Below are positions 3,054-51,964 of a DNA stretch of 64,000 nucleotides, one piece after another. The number at the start of each line of letters is the position of its first letter. Position 1 is the stretch's first letter. The DNA lies in the NCBI RefSeq assembly GCF_004324755.1, contig NZ_SDMQ01000004.1, forward strand, positions 124,001-188,000, in the 5' to 3' direction. A program made the translations under genes and the position numbers. The notes beneath the pieces were generated by a model. That model was given only the letters and a program-made list of their open reading frames with translations. It did not search any database and was not told the origin of the DNA. The DNA is from Propioniciclava sinopodophylli. Its GTDB lineage: Bacteria > Actinomycetota > Actinomycetes > Propionibacteriales > Propionibacteriaceae.

Positions 3054-3207
3054 CCGCCGAGGGCTTGGGTCCAGCCCGCCGAGGGCTTGGGTCCGGTCCG
3101 CCGAGGGCTTGGGTCCGGTCCGCCGAGGGCTTGGGTCCGGTCCGCCGAGGGCTTGGGTCCGGTCCGCCGAGGGCTTGGGTCCAGTCCGCCGAGGGCTTGG
3201 CTCCTAT
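3054..3207 (+). repeat. Tandem array, seven 22-bp units (CCGCCGAGGGCTTGGGTCC type)
   Basis: Seven consecutive units of exactly 22 bp begin at 3054, 3076, 3098, 3120, 3142, 3164 and 3186. All share CCGCCGAGGGCTTGG; variation is confined to the last few bases. The array starts five bases after the TAA stop of the PAP2-kinase gene. There is no spacer, so it is not CRISPR-like. Confidence 0.93.
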
Positions 3208-3215
3208 AGAGAAGA

Positions 3216-3325
3216 GGGGCTCTCGGCGCCCAGAGCCGGGGCTCTCGACACACAAACCCGGGGCTCTCGGCGCGCAGGGCCGGGGCTCTCGGCACACAGG
3301 GCCGGGGCTCTCGGCGTCAGCGCTC
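3216..3325 (+). repeat. Tandem array, five 22-bp units (GGGGCTCTCGGCGC type) overlapping the pheA stop
   Basis: Units start at 3216, 3238, 3260, 3282 and 3304, each opening GGGGCTCTCG and ending in a variable purine-rich tail plus CC. The last unit runs over the stop codon and final codons of pheA (stop at 3317-3319). Read on the other strand the core is GCCGAGAGCCCC, clearly related to the preceding array. Confidence 0.92.
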
Positions 3326-7565: not shown

Positions 7566-8261
7566 TCACACCTCAGGGACCTGGCCTCGCCTCAGTCCCC
7601 AGTTGGGCGCCGGCAGCCCAAGCGTCTCGTCGAGAAGGCGCAGGTAGTCGGGACGGTCGACCTCGACGGCACCCAGCGACTCCAGATGGTCGGTCACCCA
7701 CTGGACGTCGAGCAGGCGCCCCTCGACACCGTCGTCCAGCAGCTCGACCAGCCCCAGCAGAGCCACCTTGGAGGCGTCCCGCCCAAGAACGGGGTCGTGG
7801 AACATCGACTCCCCCGCGAACAACCCGCCCAAGGACACCCCGTACAAACCGCCCGCCAGGTCGCCGGAAGACGTCCACGCCTCCACCGAGTGCACGACGC
7901 CCGCGCGGTGCAGTTCGGCGTAGACCTCGACGATGCGGCCGTCGATCCAGCCCGAGGGACGCGCGGGGTCCGCGCACCGGGCCATCACCTCGTCGAACGC
8001 GGCGTCCACCGTCACCACGTACCGCCGGGCCGACTTGCGCAGCGACCGCGTCACCCGCACGTCGTCCAGCGGCAGGACGCCCCGGTGGACCGGCGACCAC
8101 CAGCCCATGGCGTCCGGCCACCCCGACTCGAGCAGCGGCATGGGGAACACGCCCGAGGCGTACGCGGCCACGACGAGGTCGGCGTCGAACTCCTGGGACA
8201 GGGCGATGAGGTCCTGGTCCGGCCAGGACGACTCCGGCCCGAACACGCCCGACAACGCCAT
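7566..8261 (-). CDS. aat: Leucyl/phenylalanyl-tRNA-protein transferase
   Basis: Adds Leu or Phe from charged tRNA to N-terminal Arg or Lys of proteins, marking them for ClpS/ClpAP-type degradation (N-degron pathway). The 231 residues match the family: YASGVFPMPL and WWSPVHRGVLPLDDV near the N-terminus, GLYGVSLGGLFAGESMF in the core, and LLDVQWVTDHLESLGAVEV near the C-terminus. ATG 8261 follows a CAGACT -10 box by six bases; the much longer upstream extension of the same frame is antisense to the EcsC-like gene and is not coding. Confidence 0.95.
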   Translation of the reverse strand: MALSGVFGPESSWPDQDLIALSQEFDADLVVAAYASGVFPMPLLESGWPDAMGWWSPVHRGVLPLDDVRVTRSLRKSARRYVVTVDAAFDEVMARCADPARPSGWIDGRIVEVYAELHRAGVVHSVEAWTSSGDLAGGLYGVSLGGLFAGESMFHDPVLGRDASKVALLGLVELLDDGVEGRLLDVQWVTDHLESLGAVEVDRPDYLRLLDETLGLPAPNWGLRRGQVPEV

Positions 8262-8267
8262 GGCTGC

Positions 8268-8273
8268 AGTCTG
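8268..8273 (-). promoter_or_regulatory. -10 box of a leaderless aat promoter
   Basis: CAGACT on the minus strand lies six bases before ATG 8261; it fixes the start well inside a longer open frame. Confidence 0.4.
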
Positions 8274-8366
8274 GCACGCCCCACCGACACCGCCCGGACG
8301 CCCCCGACCAGCACCGCTCAGGGGACGGCCGGGGGGCACCCGCTGGGGCGCAGCGCTTTCGGCGCT

Positions 8367-8372
8367 TACCCT
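8367..8372 (+). promoter_or_regulatory. -10 box of the EcsC-family gene
   Basis: TACCCT followed by six bases and ATG 8379, the leaderless geometry. It is divergent from the aat promoter 94 bp away. Confidence 0.45.
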
Positions 8373-8378
8373 GAACCC

Positions 8379-9059
8379 ATGGCACCCGAGTCGCGCGACA
8401 TCAGCAAGAACCCGGTCGCCCGTGCCCCTGAGGTCGGCGGCAACCTGCTGCGCACCCTGCTGGAGACGGCGATCACGGGCACGTCCACCCTGCCGGGAGC
8501 GAAGGTCGCCGCGGCCAAGCACCTCGGCAGGCGCGACTCCGTCGAGGACGCCCTCGAGTCGCTCGTGCTCTCCCACGTCGGCCTCGCCGGCGCGCAGGGG
8601 TTCCTGACCAGCCTCGGCGGACTGCCCACCCTCGCCGTGACCCTGCCCGCCAACATCGCCGGCCTGGCGGTGGTGCAGATCCGCCTCATCGCGTCGATCG
8701 CCCACCTGCGCGGCTACGACATCGACTCCCGGCAGGTCCGCACGGCGATGACGCTGTGCCTGATGGGCCGCGACGGTGTCCAGCGCCTCGTGGACGCCGG
8801 CGTCCTGCCGACCACCGCGCTCGCCATCGCGACCGCCCCCGTGTTCGACTCCTCGCTCGACCAACTGGTCAGCGAGAAGGTGCTCGGCGAGCTCGTCTCC
8901 CGCATCGGCGGACGCCGCGCGTCGCTGCTGTTCGCCCGCCGCGTCCCCCTCCTGGGTGGCGGCGTGGGCGCGACGATGGACGGCCTCTCCACGATCGAGA
9001 TCGGGGCGTACGCCCGCGAGGTCTTCGTGAGCCGCCGTCGCCTCACCCGCGGCGAGTGA
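8379..9059 (+). CDS. EcsC family protein
   Basis: A 226-residue protein of the EcsC family. The middle of the protein has long hydrophobic stretches (GGLPTLAVTLPANIAGLAVV and RRASLLFARRVPLLGGGVGA), so membrane association is likely. EcsC is named from the Bacillus Ecs ABC-transporter locus, but stand-alone homologues have no established reaction. The last 17 bases overlap the 3' end of the convergent flavin reductase gene. Start ATG 8379 is set by a TACCCT box. Confidence 0.75.
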   Translation: MAPESRDISKNPVARAPEVGGNLLRTLLETAITGTSTLPGAKVAAAKHLGRRDSVEDALESLVLSHVGLAGAQGFLTSLGGLPTLAVTLPANIAGLAVVQIRLIASIAHLRGYDIDSRQVRTAMTLCLMGRDGVQRLVDAGVLPTTALAIATAPVFDSSLDQLVSEKVLGELVSRIGGRRASLLFARRVPLLGGGVGATMDGLSTIEIGAYAREVFVSRRRLTRGE

Positions 9060-12951: not shown

Positions 12952-14376
12952 TCAGAACAGCAACGACAGCCCCGGGTCGGCCAGGATCGTGGCCACGTCG
13001 GCCAGGAACCGCGAGGCCTGCTCACCGTCGAGCACCCGGTGGTCAATGGTCAGGGTGAGCTTGGCGACCGTGCGGATCTCCAGGCGTTCGTCCGCCCCCT
13101 CCCCCACGACCCACGGCCGCCGGTTGAACGTGCCCAGCAGCAGGATCGCCGACTCGTTCGGGTTGAGGATCGGCGTGCCACCCTCCACCCCGAACACGCC
13201 CACGTTGGTGATGGTGAAGGTGCCGTGGGCGGCGTCGGCCGGGGTGATCCTGCCCTCGCGCACCTTGGTGACGAGGTCGTTGAGCGCGTGGGCCAGCTCG
13301 AGCAGGTTCATCTCGTTGGCCCGCTTGATGTTGGGGACCACGAGCCCCCGCTGCGTCGCCGCCGCGATGCCGAGGTTGACGTCGGAGTCGACGATGATCT
13401 CCTGGCGCTCCAGGTCGAGGCTGGAGTTCACCTCGGGGTGCCGCGCCATCGCGAGGCACACGGCCTTGGCGAGCACGATGATCGGGCTGATGCGCAGGCC
13501 GGCGAACTCGCGGCGTCCCTTGAGCTGCTCGATGAGCTCAACGGTGTTGGTGACGTCGACATCCATCCAGACCGACGCCTGCGGCACCTGCAGGGACGCC
13601 TGCATCGACTGCAGCATCTGCCGGCGCACGCCGCGGAGGGGGATGCGGGTGGGCCCGCGGCGTCCGGACGCCTCGCCCGCGGCCGCTTGCGCGACGTCGG
13701 TCGGGGTGATGGTGCCGTTGGGTCCGGTGCCCGCCACGGTGGCCAGGTCGAGGCCCAGGTCGCGAGCCAGCCGACGCACGGCGGGCTTGGCGAGCGGACG
13801 CCCCACCGGGTCGGTGGCGAGCTGTCCCCCACGGCGTCCGGCCTCGGGACGCGGCAGCGAAGGTTCGTGCGGCTCATCGACGACCGGATTCGTCGGGTGG
13901 GGCTCGTCGGTGCGGTGCCCGGGCGTCTCGTCCAGCCCGTAGCTGTCGTGCACCTGGTCGGTCTCGGGCACGGGCTGTGCCACGACCCCCTTGCGCGCAC
14001 GACGGGTGGCGGGCGCCGAGGAGGTGCCGTACCCGACGAGCACGGACCCGGACGCCGCATCCGCCGAGAGCCCCGGCTCTTCCTGCCCAGAGCCCCGGCT
14101 TCCTGTGTCGACAGCCCCGGCTTCTTGCGCCGACAGCCCCGAGCCGTCGTCGATGCGCGCGATCACGGTCCCGACGGCGACGACGTCACCCTCGGCGACC
14201 AGCAACTCGGCGACCGTCCCCGCGACGGCTGCGGGCAGCTCGACCAGCGACTTGGCGGTCTCGATCTCGACCACGATGTCGTTCACGGCCACCTCGTCGC
14301 CCACGGCGACGAGCCAGGTGACGACCTCGGCCTCCAGCAACCCCTCGCCGGGGTCGGGCAGCGTCATCTCGAACAT
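12952..14376 (-). CDS. bkdC: 2-oxo-acid dehydrogenase E2 (lipoyl acyltransferase)
   Basis: Third gene of an E1alpha-E1beta-E2 operon. Order: one lipoyl domain with the target lysine in EIETAKSLVELP (K42), a long variable linker (about residues 75-165), a peripheral-subunit-binding domain (AKPAVRRLARDLGLDLATV), then the catalytic domain ending in TIDHRVLDGEQASRF, with the His and Asp of HRxxDG. It moves the acyl group from lipoate to CoA. The E1 type suggests branched-chain 2-oxo acids, but pyruvate cannot be excluded. The linker residues ~76-105 are encoded by four 22-bp repeats, an unusual insertion. Confidence 0.9.
   Translation of the reverse strand: MFEMTLPDPGEGLLEAEVVTWLVAVGDEVAVNDIVVEIETAKSLVELPAAVAGTVAELLVAEGDVVAVGTVIARIDDGSGLSAQEAGAVDTGSRGSGQEEPGLSADAASGSVLVGYGTSSAPATRRARKGVVAQPVPETDQVHDSYGLDETPGHRTDEPHPTNPVVDEPHEPSLPRPEAGRRGGQLATDPVGRPLAKPAVRRLARDLGLDLATVAGTGPNGTITPTDVAQAAAGEASGRRGPTRIPLRGVRRQMLQSMQASLQVPQASVWMDVDVTNTVELIEQLKGRREFAGLRISPIIVLAKAVCLAMARHPEVNSSLDLERQEIIVDSDVNLGIAAATQRGLVVPNIKRANEMNLLELAHALNDLVTKVREGRITPADAAHGTFTITNVGVFGVEGGTPILNPNESAILLLGTFNRRPWVVGEGADERLEIRTVAKLTLTIDHRVLDGEQASRFLADVATILADPGLSLLF
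14063..14150 (-). repeat. Four 22-bp repeat units inside the bkdC linker
   Basis: Units begin at 14063, 14085, 14107 and 14129, all with a GCCGASAGCCCCGG-like core. They code for the flexible linker of E2 after the lipoyl domain. The total of 88 bp is not a multiple of three, so the three possible reading phases of the unit are all used. Confidence 0.9.
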
Positions 14377-27724: not shown

Positions 27725-27888
27725 GTGGCAAGTCTGAGTGCGGATCCGGGTACCCGTGTGGCAAGTCTGGCTGCGCATCCGGGTAACCGTGTGGCAAGTC
27801 TGGCTGCGCTTTCGCACGCCTGGGCGGCGATTCCGTCACTCAGAGTTGCTACACACCCGGCAGGGACAGCACTCAGAGTTGCCGCACG
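27725..27888 (+). repeat. Opposed arrays of 33-bp repeats
   Basis: Three units starting at 27725, 27758 and 27791 open GTGGCAAGTCTG. After ~20 bp, two units in the other orientation start at 27837 and 27870, reading CACTCAGAGTTGC. The period is 33 bp in both sets. The inverted units would let a transcript fold into a long imperfect hairpin. The rest of the 290-bp gap between the DUF4349 gene and rplI holds only the rplI terminator. Confidence 0.85.
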
Positions 27889-30311: not shown

Positions 30312-31544
30312 TCACGGGTGGCAGGCCGACGCCAGCTCCTCGTTGGGGTAGAGACCCTGCCACAGCGGCCCGGTGAGGACGCCGGCGCACGTCGCCCGGG
30401 ACGGGCGGTACCGAGCGTGCCCGTCGTCGAACAGCGGCGGCCGGCAGCCGTCGAACGGCAGCCGCAGGACGGCCTCGCCGCCGTTGATCCTGAGCGTGAG
30501 TTCGTCGCGGGTCGGTGTGCAGGCCTGCGGCGGCTCGGACGCCGTGACGGGCTCGCCGAGCCCGCCGAGGATGGCGTGGGCGTCCGCGCCGGTGAACGCG
30601 ACAGAGCCGGCCAGGTTGGGGCCGTCGCCGGGCAGGTCGGCGTACTGGCAGGCCACGACGGAATCGGTGGCCGTTGTCTGCGCGACAGGGGCACCGAGGG
30701 TGACGTCGCCGAGCCGCACCGGGCAGCCGCGCGGGTCGACCTCGACCACCTGGGCGGTGGCAAGGATGTCGTCCGCCAGCTGCTGGTCGGTGGCGGGCAC
30801 CTCGACGGTCAGCAGCGCCGAGCTGACGCGGCGGGAGACTGCGAGCCACCCGTCGCCCAGGTCCTGGGTGCGGTCGACGTCGGTCGTTGCGGCGGGGCGC
30901 CAGGTCAGGTGGGTCTGGCGCAGGGCGTCCGGCATCGGTTCGGGACACGCGATGGCCATGGTCGCCCGCGCGGAGGGGTTGCGGTCGACGAACGGGGCGT
31001 CGGGGCGCTGGTAGCCGTCGGCGGCGCACCAGTCGGGACCGGGCGCGAAGTCGTGGCCCCACGCGTCCGGCACGAGGACGGCCACGTCGAGCATCGACTC
31101 CCAGCGCAGCCCGGCCGGGGCCTGCGCCTCCGTGGCGCCGGACAGGGTGGCCGTGCTGGGCTGGGCGGCCGGTTCTGGGAAGGACTCGATGCGGCTGTCC
31201 TGGGCGCCGCCAGCGGCCGCGGGGGCCCCGGCCGTGGCCGAGATGGTGTCGCGGTTGGAGAACCAGATACCGATGACCGGCACGGCGAGCACCAGCGCGA
31301 CGGACGCCGCCGCCACCCCCACCCAAGTTCCTCGCCTTCGAGCGCCGAGAGCCCCGGGTTCGTCCGCCGAGGGCTTGCCTTCGAGGTCCGCCGAGGGCTT
31401 GCCTTCGAGGTCCGCCGAGGGCTTGCCTTCGAGGTCCGTCAGCTCGATCGGGGCGAAGTCGCGGTCGTCGGCGTGCTCGCGGAACGCCCTGCGGAAGGCC
31501 CGTTCTGCGCGGTCGGGGCTGTCGGCGCGGTCGTGGTCGGTCAT
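30312..31544 (-). CDS. Membrane protein partner (probable anti-sigma factor) of the SigE-type sigma gene
   Basis: 410 residues. A ~70-residue cytoplasmic N-terminus, one membrane helix (TWVGVAAASVALVLAVPVIG), and a ~300-residue extracytoplasmic region with several paired Cys (WCAADG, ACPEP, GCPV, ACQY, ACTP). No clear zinc-binding anti-sigma motif (HxxxCxxC) is seen, so the role is inferred from its overlap with the sigma gene (ATGA). Residues ~37-60 are DLEGKPSA repeated three times, made by a 24-bp version of the local repeat. Confidence 0.6.
   Translation of the reverse strand: MTDHDRADSPDRAERAFRRAFREHADDRDFAPIELTDLEGKPSADLEGKPSADLEGKPSADEPGALGARRRGTWVGVAAASVALVLAVPVIGIWFSNRDTISATAGAPAAAGGAQDSRIESFPEPAAQPSTATLSGATEAQAPAGLRWESMLDVAVLVPDAWGHDFAPGPDWCAADGYQRPDAPFVDRNPSARATMAIACPEPMPDALRQTHLTWRPAATTDVDRTQDLGDGWLAVSRRVSSALLTVEVPATDQQLADDILATAQVVEVDPRGCPVRLGDVTLGAPVAQTTATDSVVACQYADLPGDGPNLAGSVAFTGADAHAILGGLGEPVTASEPPQACTPTRDELTLRINGGEAVLRLPFDGCRPPLFDDGHARYRPSRATCAGVLTGPLWQGLYPNEELASACHP
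31344..31435 (-). repeat. In-frame repeat array (one 22-bp and three 24-bp units) in the anti-sigma-like gene
   Basis: One GCCGAGAGCCCCGG unit (31344) is followed by three identical 24-bp units at 31364, 31388 and 31412, each starting CCGCCGAGGGCTTGCC. The core equals that of the 22-bp array at 3054, but here the period is a multiple of three and encodes DLEGKPSA three times. Confidence 0.92.
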
Positions 31545-32044
31545 CGCGATTCCTCCAACAGGTTCGTGCGGAGCCGGGTCAGCGCGCGGTGCACGTGGCT
31601 GCGGGCGGTGGCCTCCGCGCAGCCGAGCACCTCGGCGATCTCGGCGAAAGCCAGCCCGGACCAGAACCGCAGCACGACGGCCGCGCGCTGGTCGGGGCTG
31701 AGGGTGGCGCAGAGGCGCCAGGCGGCGTCCGCGTCGGCGAGTTCGTCCTCGAAGCCGGACGCCGCGGCCTGCGGCAGGTCCTGGGGCGCCTCGACCGGCG
31801 TGGAGTGCCGCGTCTTGCGCCAGCGGGACACCGACGCGTTCACGATCGAGCGGTGGACGTAGGCGTCCACGTCACCCTTGGCGGCGACCTCGTCGTAGCG
31901 GGGCCACAGGCCGATCAGGGCGTCCTGGACCGCGTCGCGGGCGTCCTCGGGGTGACGCGTGACGAGGTACGCGAAGCGTTGCAGTGCGACCGAGCGGGCG
32001 CGCACGTACTCCTCGAACGTGCGGGCCGGCTCAACATCCGCCAC
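31541..32044 (-). CDS. SigE-family RNA polymerase sigma factor (ECF)
   Basis: 167 residues from GTG 32044, which has GGAGGAG six bases upstream. An upstream in-frame start at 32116 would add 24 Cys-containing residues and looks spurious. Region 2 includes FAYLVTRHPEDARDAVQDAL; region 4 includes LSPDQRAAVVLRFWSGLAFAEI then VLGCAEATARSHVHRAL. The SigE (Streptomyces) type normally controls cell-envelope stress genes. The stop overlaps the putative anti-sigma gene. Confidence 0.87.
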   Translation of the reverse strand: MADVEPARTFEEYVRARSVALQRFAYLVTRHPEDARDAVQDALIGLWPRYDEVAAKGDVDAYVHRSIVNASVSRWRKTRHSTPVEAPQDLPQAAASGFEDELADADAAWRLCATLSPDQRAAVVLRFWSGLAFAEIAEVLGCAEATARSHVHRALTRLRTNLLEESR

Positions 32045-32151
32045 GGGCCTCTCCTCCAGCAGGGTCACACCATCATCCACGCACGGGGATGCGCATCCGT
32101 TGCAGGACGCGGACACGCGCCGGGTCGCCTCGCTCCCCCTTCGTCAGGACC

Positions 32152-32239
32152 GGGGCTCTCGGCGCAAAACACCGGGGCTGTCGGCACACAACACCGGGGC
32201 TCTCGGCACACGAACCCGGGGCTGTCGGCGGTCAGGGGC
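32152..32239 (+). repeat. Four 22-bp repeat units overlapping the acyl-CoA synthetase stop
   Basis: Units at 32152, 32174, 32196 and 32218 with a GGGGCTSTCGGC core. The last unit runs across the stop codon (32232-32234) of the synthetase gene, as the unit at 3304 does at pheA. Confidence 0.92.
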
Positions 32240-35315: not shown

Positions 35316-35403
35316 GGGGCTCTCGGCGCACGCAACCGGGGCTCTCGGCGCACGAAGCCGGGGCTCTCGGCGCACGCAACCGGGGCTCTGGACGCTTCGC
35401 TCC
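35316..35403 (+). repeat. Four 22-bp repeat units starting directly after the nfo stop
   Basis: Units at 35316, 35338, 35360 and 35382 open GGGGCTCTCGGCGCACG; the fourth is degenerate. The first base is the base after TGA 35313-35315. Confidence 0.93.
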
Positions 35404-49957: not shown

Positions 49958-51964
49958 TCAACATCGTCGTGCCCCGGGCCGAAGTCGTGGCGGTGGCCAC
50001 CGCAGCTCGCCGGGACGGTCATCGCGTGGCGTTCTTGCCATACCACACCGTTCTAGGGTAGTTGCCCGGACGCCCAACCTGGAACCAGAGTTGCCACCGC
50101 CCCGCCGAGAGCCCCGGTGTTGCGCGCCGACAGCCCCGGTGTTGCGCGCCGACAGCCCCGGTGTTGCGCGCCGACAGCCCCGCACAGCTGCACGGTTGGC
50201 CTCCCGCCAGCGCCTCCGCGTACACTGATTCCTCGCCGGGGCCATGGCGCAATTGGTAGCGCACCTGCTTTGCAAGCAGGGGGTTAGGGGTTCGAGTCCC
50301 CTTGGCTCCACCGACGGCACAAGGCTCGAACCCTTGCCAATGGAAACTTTGGCGGGGGTTCGGGCCTTGTTCGTGTCTGCGGCCCGAGTGAGAGCGTTGG
50401 CGTTGACCTGGGGGTCGAGCAGCATTTCGAAGGGCCGGTTGTGCTCGACGCGCAGCTCGTTGTCCTCGTCGATGTCGACCTTCGTGAAGAACGCCTGGTT
50501 GCATAGCCGTCGGTTGGTACCGTCGCAGCGGGCGTAGATTTCGGCGCAGTTGGCGAGGAGCCCGAGGGCGTCGTCGAGGTGGGCGCGGGCGTCGGCGTAG
50601 TCGCCGAAGTGGGCGTCGATACGTCGGGTCACCTTGTCGAGTTCGGCGGGGATGCGGTCCTGCTCGCGCTTGAGCACGGTCAGCGGGATCGCGTCGGCAT
50701 AGTGGGCCTGCATGAGTCGGTCTTGCTCGCTTTCGAGCCGGTCGCGGTTGGCCGTGAGACGCGCGAGTTCTTCGGTTTCGGCGGCCATCAGCCGGTCGAA
50801 CTCGTGGTGGAGCATCCCGGCGAGGGCGTCTTGCTGGGCGGGTGTGATCTGGACGCGGGAGTAGTAGTCCTCGACGAGCTTCTCCACGTCCTCGATGAGC
50901 ATGGCCTGGCGCGTGCACTCGGTCCGCTTGGAATGCCGGCCGGAGCAGACGAAGTCGCAGTACACGTTGCCGTGGCGGTTCTTCGCGTTGGAGACGATGA
51001 GCCGCGACCCGCATTGGCCGCAGTGGATGGTGCCTTTGAGGTAGTGACCGTGAACCTGGGTCGCCTCGACGGCGCACTGGTGCGCGGTGAGCACGGACTG
51101 GACCTGGTACCAGACCTCGGCGGGCACGAGCGCGGGGTGGTTCCCCTTGTAGCGGGTGCCGCGGTAGACGACATCGCCTTTGTAGTAGGGGTTGGTGAGG
51201 AGCCGGTGCACGGTCGAGACGGCGAGAGCCTTCGCCGCTCGCTTCGGGGTTGGCAGGCTGCGGAGTCCGCGTGAGGTGAGTTCGTCGTGGAGCTGGCTGA
51301 CGCTCCAGTTCCCGGAGGCGTATGCCTTGAAGGCCCACTCGATCATGGGCGCGCGTTCGGGGTCGAGCTCGATGGTGCGGAGCTCGCGGCCCGTCTCGTC
51401 GCGCTTGCGGACGTTGAGGTAGCCGATGGGTGCTCGCCCGTTCGTTCCTCCACCGATGGCTTTCTGCGTCATGCCTTTGGTGACTTCGGTGGCGAGGTTG
51501 CGGGAGTAGAACTCGGCGATCGTGGACATGATGCCGTGCAGCAGCATGCCCGAGGGCGTCTCGTCGATGTTCTCTGTCGCGGAGACGAGCATGACCCCGC
51601 ACTGTTGGAGTGCGAGGTGGATGCTCACGTCGTCGGCGCGGTTGCGGGCGAGTCGGTCTACCTTGTGGACGATGCAGTAGGAGACCTTGTTGGCCTTGAC
51701 GTACTGGATCATCCGCATCAGCTCGGGCCGGTCGGATGACTTAGCGGAGGCTCCTGCGTCGATGAACTCTTCGACGATGCCGGCGCCGAGCTGTTCGGCC
51801 TTGCGCCTGGTCGCTTCGCGTTGGGCGGGGATCGAGAAGCCTTCGTCGGTGCCGCCCTTCTCTGCCTGCTCACGGGTTGAGACCCGGAGGTAGGACACTG
51901 CGACAGCAGCGGTCCGGGGTGGGTCGATCAGGCTGGCTGTTGGATCATCGGCGACGGTGGTCAT
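49958..51964 (-). CDS. Large serine recombinase reading through tRNA-Ala
   Basis: 668 codons from ATG 51964. The first ~550 make the enzyme: catalytic domain with the active serine in SYLRVSTREQAEKG, IVHKVDRLARNR, recombinase domain, and zinc ribbon (HCGQCG, then VYCDFVCSG). From about 50313 the frame leaves the element: it is antisense to tRNA-Ala, crosses the 22-bp array and ends at 49958 in chromosomal DNA. So the natural stop codon is missing here, and the tail depends on the site of insertion. Integration at the tRNA 3' end is inferred from this abutment. Confidence 0.82.
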   Translation of the reverse strand: MTTVADDPTASLIDPPRTAAVAVSYLRVSTREQAEKGGTDEGFSIPAQREATRRKAEQLGAGIVEEFIDAGASAKSSDRPELMRMIQYVKANKVSYCIVHKVDRLARNRADDVSIHLALQQCGVMLVSATENIDETPSGMLLHGIMSTIAEFYSRNLATEVTKGMTQKAIGGGTNGRAPIGYLNVRKRDETGRELRTIELDPERAPMIEWAFKAYASGNWSVSQLHDELTSRGLRSLPTPKRAAKALAVSTVHRLLTNPYYKGDVVYRGTRYKGNHPALVPAEVWYQVQSVLTAHQCAVEATQVHGHYLKGTIHCGQCGSRLIVSNAKNRHGNVYCDFVCSGRHSKRTECTRQAMLIEDVEKLVEDYYSRVQITPAQQDALAGMLHHEFDRLMAAETEELARLTANRDRLESEQDRLMQAHYADAIPLTVLKREQDRIPAELDKVTRRIDAHFGDYADARAHLDDALGLLANCAEIYARCDGTNRRLCNQAFFTKVDIDEDNELRVEHNRPFEMLLDPQVNANALTRAADTNKARTPAKVSIGKGSSLVPSVEPRGLEPLTPCLQSRCATNCAMAPARNQCTRRRWREANRAAVRGCRRATPGLSARNTGAVGAQHRGSRRGGGNSGSRLGVRATTLERCGMARTPRDDRPGELRWPPPRLRPGARRC
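50085..50097 (-). repeat. Solitary 33-bp-family motif GTGGCAACTCTGG
   Basis: Same motif as the 33-bp units at 27725-27888, seven bases from the 22-bp array, so the two repeat families meet here. Confidence 0.4.
50104..50191 (+). repeat. Four 22-bp repeat units upstream of tRNA-Ala
   Basis: Units at 50104, 50126, 50148 and 50170 with GCCGASAGCCCCGGTGTTGC core. The array sits between the divergently transcribed PBP and tRNA genes and is the last one seen in the window. Confidence 0.92.
50238..50310 (+). tRNA. tRNA-Ala (UGC anticodon)
   Basis: 73 nt. The acceptor arm GGGGCCA pairs with TGGCTCC (one G-U). The D arm has AATTGGTA. Anticodon arm CCTGC-TTTGCAA-GCAGG shows anticodon TGC, and TTCGAGTCC is the T loop. 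The discriminator A at 50310 is followed by CC, so CCA is not fully encoded. It is the probable attachment site of the adjacent element. Confidence 0.97.

Follow-up and report, generated by a model that had tools for sequence, protein, structure and literature searches.

A 24-bp coding array in an anti-sigma-like gene of Propioniciclava sinopodophylli and a dispersed 22-bp repeat family proposed to be the binding boxes of AbiEi-nuclease proteins

The 24-bp array and its host gene

The gene for an anti-sigma-like membrane protein of Propioniciclava sinopodophylli (genome G000) contains a short tandem array with a period of 24 bp, the core of which is repeated elsewhere in the same 64,000-nucleotide stretch of DNA (the window) with a period of 22 bp. 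This raises the questions of where the coding array originated and whether its frame-compatible period reflects selection on length. The features at the locus are as follows.

31364..31438, plus strand: three units of 24 bp, of the T1 subtype but 2 bp longer; their core is on the other strand from the host gene
31342..31363, plus strand: single 22-bp T2 unit, GCGCCGAGAGCCCCGGGTTCGT, adjoining the 24-bp array in register (29.2 bits against the T2 profile)
31507..31528, minus strand: lone T2-like unit facing the 24-bp array (18.3 bits), within the same anti-sigma-like gene
30312..31544, minus strand: the host gene, coding for the anti-sigma-like membrane protein and directly following the ECF sigma gene; orthologs in G001, G012 and G007 are 43-50% identical
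31541..32068, minus strand: ECF sigma factor gene (SigE-like), with Pfam Sigma70_r2 and r4_2 domains and a TIGR02983 match below its cut-off

Tandem Repeats Finder locates the array at 31362-31438 (period 24; 3.2 copies; match 100%), and the three copies of the 24-bp unit, CCGCCGAGGGCTTGCCTTCGAGGT, are identical and in frame. The translated minus-strand ORF 30312-31544, which matches no Pfam family at E ≤ 0.001, carries DLEGKPSA at residues 37, 45 and 53 and has one strong hydrophobic stretch, the 19-residue segment of highest hydrophobicity starting at residue 75. The repeat finder and the translation agree in this with the initial annotation, which had described three in-frame DLEGKPSA copies with an exact 24-bp period N-terminal to a membrane helix. 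It made no mention of the adjoining T2 unit at 31342 or of the opposite unit at 31507-31528. The latter is situated 73 bp from the 24-bp array, at a short N-terminal insert which, by alignment, the G001 and G012 orthologs are without. This lone unit gives a facing layout even at the 24-bp array, and may itself be a chance match.

A dispersed family of 22-bp units

The G000 genome (3.07 Mb) contains 142 exact matches to the T1 core and 151 to the T2 core, and none to the reversed core patterns. The two subtypes align without gaps, as SCGCCGAGRGCYYS followed by eight variable bases. Within the window, 21 matches to the core with at most two mismatches were found, against a mean of 2.28 in shuffled sequences. 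Its ten exact copies comprise seven at 3054-3199 in 22-bp steps and three at 31364-31425 in 24-bp steps, which bears out the earlier observation that the core is also used with a 22-bp period at 3054. Further arrays of the window are listed here.

3054..3207, plus strand: T1 array of seven 22-bp units, the first half of a facing pair
3208..3317, minus strand: T2 array opposite the T1 array
32144..32231, minus strand: T2 array separating the sigma gene from an AMP-ligase gene; G001 has no unit at the corresponding place
35330..35373, minus strand: T2 array following a gene that encodes an AP_endonuc_2 (TIM barrel) domain
50102..50189, plus strand: T2 array of four units, beyond tRNA-Ala (50238-50312)

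Unit spacing was counted in a sample of 452 kb, consisting of the window and 20 stretches selected as repeat-rich, with genes called by our own codon-usage script. Among the 189 steps between neighboring units, 184 are of 22 bp, two of 44 bp, one of 21 bp and two of 24 bp, so that 186 are multiples of 22 bp. Both 24-bp steps belong to the array at 31364-31438, with none elsewhere in the sample. Although 90% of the sampled DNA was called coding, only 21 of the 265 units lie inside called genes, and four of these fall in the tail of a serine recombinase ORF overrunning a tRNA. Since this ORF overlaps tRNA-Ala (50238-50312), its tail across the array at 50102-50189 is probably not real coding sequence and was not counted as such. 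The recombinase ORF (49958-51898) traverses the tRNA gene, which is on the other strand, as expected at the edge of an integrated element. A tandem repeat of 33 bp at 27725-27809 of the window (2.6 copies) is unlike the 22-bp family.

Repeats at the flanks of AbiEi-nuclease family genes

Two paralogous G000 genes sharing 59% identity, L032 and L015, are located between facing T1 arrays and between facing T2 arrays, respectively, and neither matches a Pfam family at E ≤ 0.001. In the L015 model (mean pLDDT 86; 17 sequences), the N-terminal part resembles AbiEi (6y8q; Z 9.2), with the nucleotidyltransferase toxin MenT1 (Z 8.5) nearly tied, and the C-terminal part resembles the homing endonuclease I-Bth0305I (3r3p; Z 10.7 over 95 residues of the 97-residue chain), Vsr (1cw0; Z 8.8) and also a mitoribosome protein chain (Z 9.0). 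A single Foldseek match fell under E 0.001, namely the best match, Rv2827c (TM 0.31); Vsr was matched at E 0.19. PADLOC AbiEi profiles match four of the four members tried, two of them weakly, with L015 itself matched weakly, and AbiEi_4 matches seven of the 17 members. An AbiEi-like winged-helix and C-terminal antitoxin fold is thus present by profile matches and by the 6y8q fold match, and the predicted structure presents a Vsr/EDxHD-type nuclease fold with conserved residues of catalytic type. Residues E173, D206, E217, D219 and K223 are invariant in the 17 sequences, and we infer from this conservation that these acidic residues and the lysine may be catalytic. By predicted fold, members of the family would combine an AbiEi-like part for DNA binding with a homing-endonuclease (EDxHD/Vsr-like) part, EDxHD being the name of the family to which I-Bth0305I belongs.

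In G001 and G008, T1-type arrays flank the L032 ortholog on both sides; in G007 a single side was readable, and it has them too. A G007 paralog is flanked by CGCCGAGGACCGG units, which account for 11 of the 12 tandem steps counted in six loci of isolate S3R_St_70, taken as G007. The flank units of family genes, either tandem or palindromic, are 20 bp long in G005 and G006 and 19 bp long in G002 and G004, and flank-like units recur in other 20-kb stretches of G006 (3/11) and G005 (3/10). The dispersed subtype is that found at the flanks of a resident family gene in G000 (T1 and T2), G007, G008 (T1), G005 and G006. Furthermore, the repeat period tracks the protein clade, as members with 22-bp units share 49-59% identity with L015 and the rest 26-38%.

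Inverted flank repeats, counted at a score of 40 or more, are present at ten of 16 family genes of the genus (8/14 without L032 and L015, which were first met through their arrays) and at 13 of 614 other genes, where the G000 control stretches were mostly selected for repeat content. Five of the 13 scoring controls are themselves family genes left in the 614 (L032, L015, L131, L188 15514 and L187 3978), and in four cases (L136, L137, L022 and L027) the gene is an ordinary one enclosed by facing arrays. Further family genes of the genus have inverted flank repeats in five of six cases. These six are the new members of a follow-up set of 22 entries, from which L240, L249 and L255 were dropped as lying at contig ends; of the remaining 19, 13 belong to the 16-gene set, and 15 score at least 40. 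Across the order, where the family profile matches 68 of the 77 genomes searched, inverted flank repeats were found at 18 of 29 loci, and shuffles, which keep local base composition only, reach the score at 2/29 (any of 20). Direct flank repeats are equally common in this set (18/29), which excludes a thirtieth locus as too short and counts the L032 gene once more, as L197. Some of the order-wide flanks are near-perfect palindromes of ~20-bp units. Reading 160 kb from each of two other genera gave a single additional copy of the flank element in G015 and none in G069. Among the seven family genes of G000, that on C42 has no flank repeats, that on C11 has two units on one side, and that on C4 shows a weak match.

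Several individual genes may be recorded here. A 315-aa protein of G001 (L111 18367-19314; AbiEi_4 E 0.084), its gene being another of the 13 scoring controls, has a near-perfect inverted palindromic element at its flanks, and inspection by eye lends weak support to its being a distant AbiEi-nuclease member, unmatched by the family profile. Two family genes, at C33:136603-137505 in G000 and C1:2471886-2472797 in G001, have an in-frame stop and are apparently decaying, with palindromic units still at their flanks. The family gene on C129 of G007 (L238) shows a long direct match between its flanks (score 502), which may reflect a duplication or an artifact of assembly.

Comparison with REP/RAYT and toxin-antitoxin systems

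In the REP/REPIN and RAYT system, as presented in PMC3686654, dispersed extragenic short repeats occur in facing pairs, the gene lies between cognate repeats, and genes and repeats have co-diversified; REPs there bear a GTAG/GGAG-type 5′ tetranucleotide beside a short palindrome. The arrays described here are likewise dispersed, extragenic and in facing pairs, with a cognate gene that is flanked by the repeat and is not found in every genome. They differ in consisting of tandem boxes of 19-22 bp, and in that the protein is AbiEi-like and nuclease-like, whereas that of the REPs is a Y1 transposase (TnpA-REP). The T1 and T2 profiles of G000 have no GTAG/GGAG-type tag. Y1_Tnp (PF01797) was found in none of the 13 genomes of the genus, against five positives among 14 control genomes. 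Membership in REP/RAYT is ruled out by this absence of the defining transposase, leaving a likeness in working.

A second comparison is with the type IV toxin-antitoxin systems AbiE and MenA-MenT. According to PMC3985639, AbiEi binds two inverted 23-bp boxes 3 bp apart, each with a conserved outer part of ~11 bp, and one monomer per box has been proposed; PMC7319586 gives four 23-bp boxes, with gaps of 4 and 13 bp, for Rv2827c. The family shares with these the AbiEi-like domain and facing boxes of ~22 bp, conserved in their outer part and separated by few bp. In the facing pairs of 22-bp units, the conserved 13-14 bp are outermost, and the gap is 0, 8, 11 or 33 bp in ten of the 17 close facing pairs. 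A facing pair has the same topology as the inverted AbiEi boxes. Here, however, a nuclease-like part is fused to the protein, and the boxes, which flank the gene on either side and are also dispersed, form long arrays. The likeness to I-Bth0305I and Vsr consists in the predicted C-terminal fold and in the invariant acidic residues and lysine, and the difference in the suspected target, which is the repeat itself rather than an allele lacking the gene. In the literature covered in full text, a scope with most subscription journals outside it, no paper was found that links dispersed repeats with AbiEi or with DUF559/Vsr-like genes.

A proposed mechanism for repeat spread

In our proposal, the repeats would belong to a system akin to REP/RAYT that works through another protein, one whose genes are associated with the repeats and which would mobilise them. 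Dispersal, facing order, the association of gene with subtype, the predicted folds and the absence of units from matching sites of a relative are directly supported, and we infer that the family protein would bind, cut and copy the boxes. Because AbiEi antitoxins bind inverted boxes of 23 bp, each 22-bp unit is probably, by analogy, one putative protein box. One molecule of the family protein would bind one box, as proposed for AbiEi, such that an array would be an expanded operator; the nuclease part would nick or cut at the boxes, and repair would copy and multiply them, giving tandem growth, facing duplicates and new sites. We consider it rather probable that the dispersed repeats are binding boxes of the AbiEi-nuclease family, with the 24-bp array as their offshoot in coding sequence, and that the protein cuts and spreads the boxes in the proposed manner. 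Counting against this reading are the arrays of P. flava, where no family gene was found, the missing or incomplete flank repeats at three family genes of G000, the facing pairs around genes of other kinds, the few or no extra flank copies in G015 and G069, the competing fold matches, the equal frequency of direct flank repeats across the order, and the singleness of the 24-bp event.

The repeats might instead be passive tandem repeats that grew by slippage and spread by ordinary recombination, with the AbiEi-nuclease genes being mere neighbors with operators of their own. Arrays can grow through slippage alone, and AbiEi promoters have box pairs, so that finding boxes next to the gene is no surprise. 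Spacer similarity, moreover, is higher inside an array (0.74 and 0.69) than from one array to another (0.55 and 0.43), as local duplication predicts. A further point in its favor is P. flava (G011), which has arrays of a third subtype, CGCCGAGGACTTCGG (12 tandem triples), and none of whose 46 scored candidates is a family gene. Its facing arrays enclose ordinary genes (L136 10262-11260, L137 around 8049-9014 and L135 6580-7098), among them an MBL-like hydrolase and an oxidoreductase-like gene as judged by eye. Operators, however, account for the upstream side only, whereas inverted copies are also found downstream, and the many dispersed copies that match the flank subtype of the gene need more than an operator. 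We therefore regard passive spread as rather unlikely and retain the copying of boxes by the family protein as the preferred reading.

Layout and turnover of the arrays

Among 82 arrays, 17 of 19 neighboring pairs less than 150 bp apart are in facing order, as are 10 of 13 at 150-1600 bp, but none of 29 beyond 1600 bp. Facing arrays 600-1320 bp apart, enclosing a complete gene or two of either orientation, are found in eight G000 records (L015, L019, L022, L024, L027, L028, L029 and L032), and facing pairs also enclose carbonic anhydrase, M20 peptidase and epimerase genes.

A role as bidirectional transcription terminators or mRNA-stabilising hairpins, selected at gene ends, would accord with the closeness of arrays to stop codons (within 10 bp for 26 of the 52 that border one), with arrays being somewhat more frequent in convergent intergenic regions (12/39) than in tandem (26/143) or divergent ones (12/67), and with the long hairpins that facing arrays could form. 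Nevertheless, 17 arrays in tandem regions are read with the genes and 17 against them, and arrays occur in divergent regions too, on which grounds gene-end terminators were rejected as the main cause. The facing order is also independent of gene direction, and 23 of the 25 matched G001 sites described below are without a unit. Such selection at gene ends is hence a quite improbable explanation.

In a comparison of 30 array clusters of G000 with G001, 25 were matched and five unmatched, and at 23 of the 25 (a number in which two halves of a single site are counted separately) G001 has no T1 or T2 unit. Relative to G001, the sequence at L022 4278-4894 looks like a facing pair cleanly inserted, and at one G000 array site G001 has a minimal palindrome alone. 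A facing pair is present around a DUF421 gene in both genomes, with differing unit numbers. For the facing pair that encloses a GtrA and an alpha/beta-hydrolase gene, no tandem units were found by the hydrolase orthologs in the six relatives examined.

Coding copies and the 24-bp period

The 24-bp array is, judging by sequence likeness, a coding offshoot of the dispersed 22-bp family, that is, a T1 repeat with 2 bp added. Removal of two nucleotides (position 20-21) from the 24-mer gives a 22-mer with one mismatch to two real T1 units elsewhere, in keeping with the initial view that the coding copies are members of the 22-bp arrays. DLEGKPSA is absent from the G001 and G012 orthologs, which have a shorter linker and no repeat, from the more distant G002 and G003 proteins, and from the truncated G008 copy as far as readable; an old DLEGKPSA repeat common to distant species, which the initial annotation had named as the contrary case, was thus not observed. 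That the 24-bp unit is such an old protein repeat, resembling the 22-bp family by chance or through native codons, finds some support in a native 11-nt stretch of G001 that matches part of the unit at nine positions, by which the spacer is possibly partly native, but is very improbable given that the core agrees at all 14 bases with that of a family present in 142 exact copies, that a 22-bp T2 unit adjoins in register, that the shortened 24-mer is so close to real T1 units, and that G001 and G012 are without the repeat.

Coding arrays were also found in two other genes and in one ortholog of the host gene. In the window, an array is located in an interdomain linker of a dihydrolipoamide (E2) acyltransferase gene:

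14061..14148, plus strand: T2 array of four units (three steps of 22 bp) in the linker of the E2 acyltransferase gene (12952-14376, minus strand)

This linker is overall not longer. The ThiF-rhodanese gene carries an array (L020 15601-15666; two steps of 22 bp) in an interdomain linker that is longer than in relatives. In the G007 ortholog of the host gene (record L037), the same linker contains about three 22-bp units of the subtype proper to that genome, CGCCGAGGACCGG, whose core is on the coding strand, opposite to G000; the different subtype and strand point to independent arrivals. As these copies are situated in linkers, the tolerance of arrays within genes probably derives from linker flexibility.

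The frame can thus be kept either by the number of 22-bp units or by a 24-bp unit. The expectation of 24-bp multiples in coding copies does not hold, as the E2 acyltransferase, ThiF-rhodanese and G007 arrays keep 22-bp steps, and 24 bp as a rule for genes is ruled out; of the proposed frame-compatible variant, the derivation from the 22-bp repeat stands and its generality in coding sequence does not. Stop codons were likewise rejected as the cause of the 24-bp period, since 22-bp arrays translated against the direction of the core have no stop in any frame for 71 of 110 (T1) and 138 of 150 (T2) units. With a 24-bp step, an array is frame-neutral at any copy number. Eight of the 189 unit steps were judged to be in true coding sequence, so that the chance of a single 24-bp event falling there is ~0.04 (0.043 with a base of 187). 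The link to selection, coming from one event, is suggestive, and selection on the length of the coding array is plausible. Units would have come into the flexible linker ahead of the membrane helix, one T1 unit would then have received two extra bp in its spacer, and the resulting 24-bp unit would have been duplicated locally, the products in frame surviving.

Implications

A wider reading is put forward as a tentative possibility, namely that an unrecognised selfish system exists in Actinobacteria, in which fusions of AbiEi with a homing endonuclease copy their own operator boxes, by then turned into their targets, genome-wide, build facing arrays, can enclose and perhaps move genes, and occasionally put boxes into linkers, where frame-compatible lengths are selected. 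The multiplication of short repeats in bacteria is known mainly through REPs and their associated Y1-transposase proteins. If the reading is true, a second and unrelated repeat-tied protein family across an order would provide a new test system, and it would suggest a route from a toxin-antitoxin operator to a selfish repeat. The coding arrays show dispersed repeats supplying new sequence to protein linkers.
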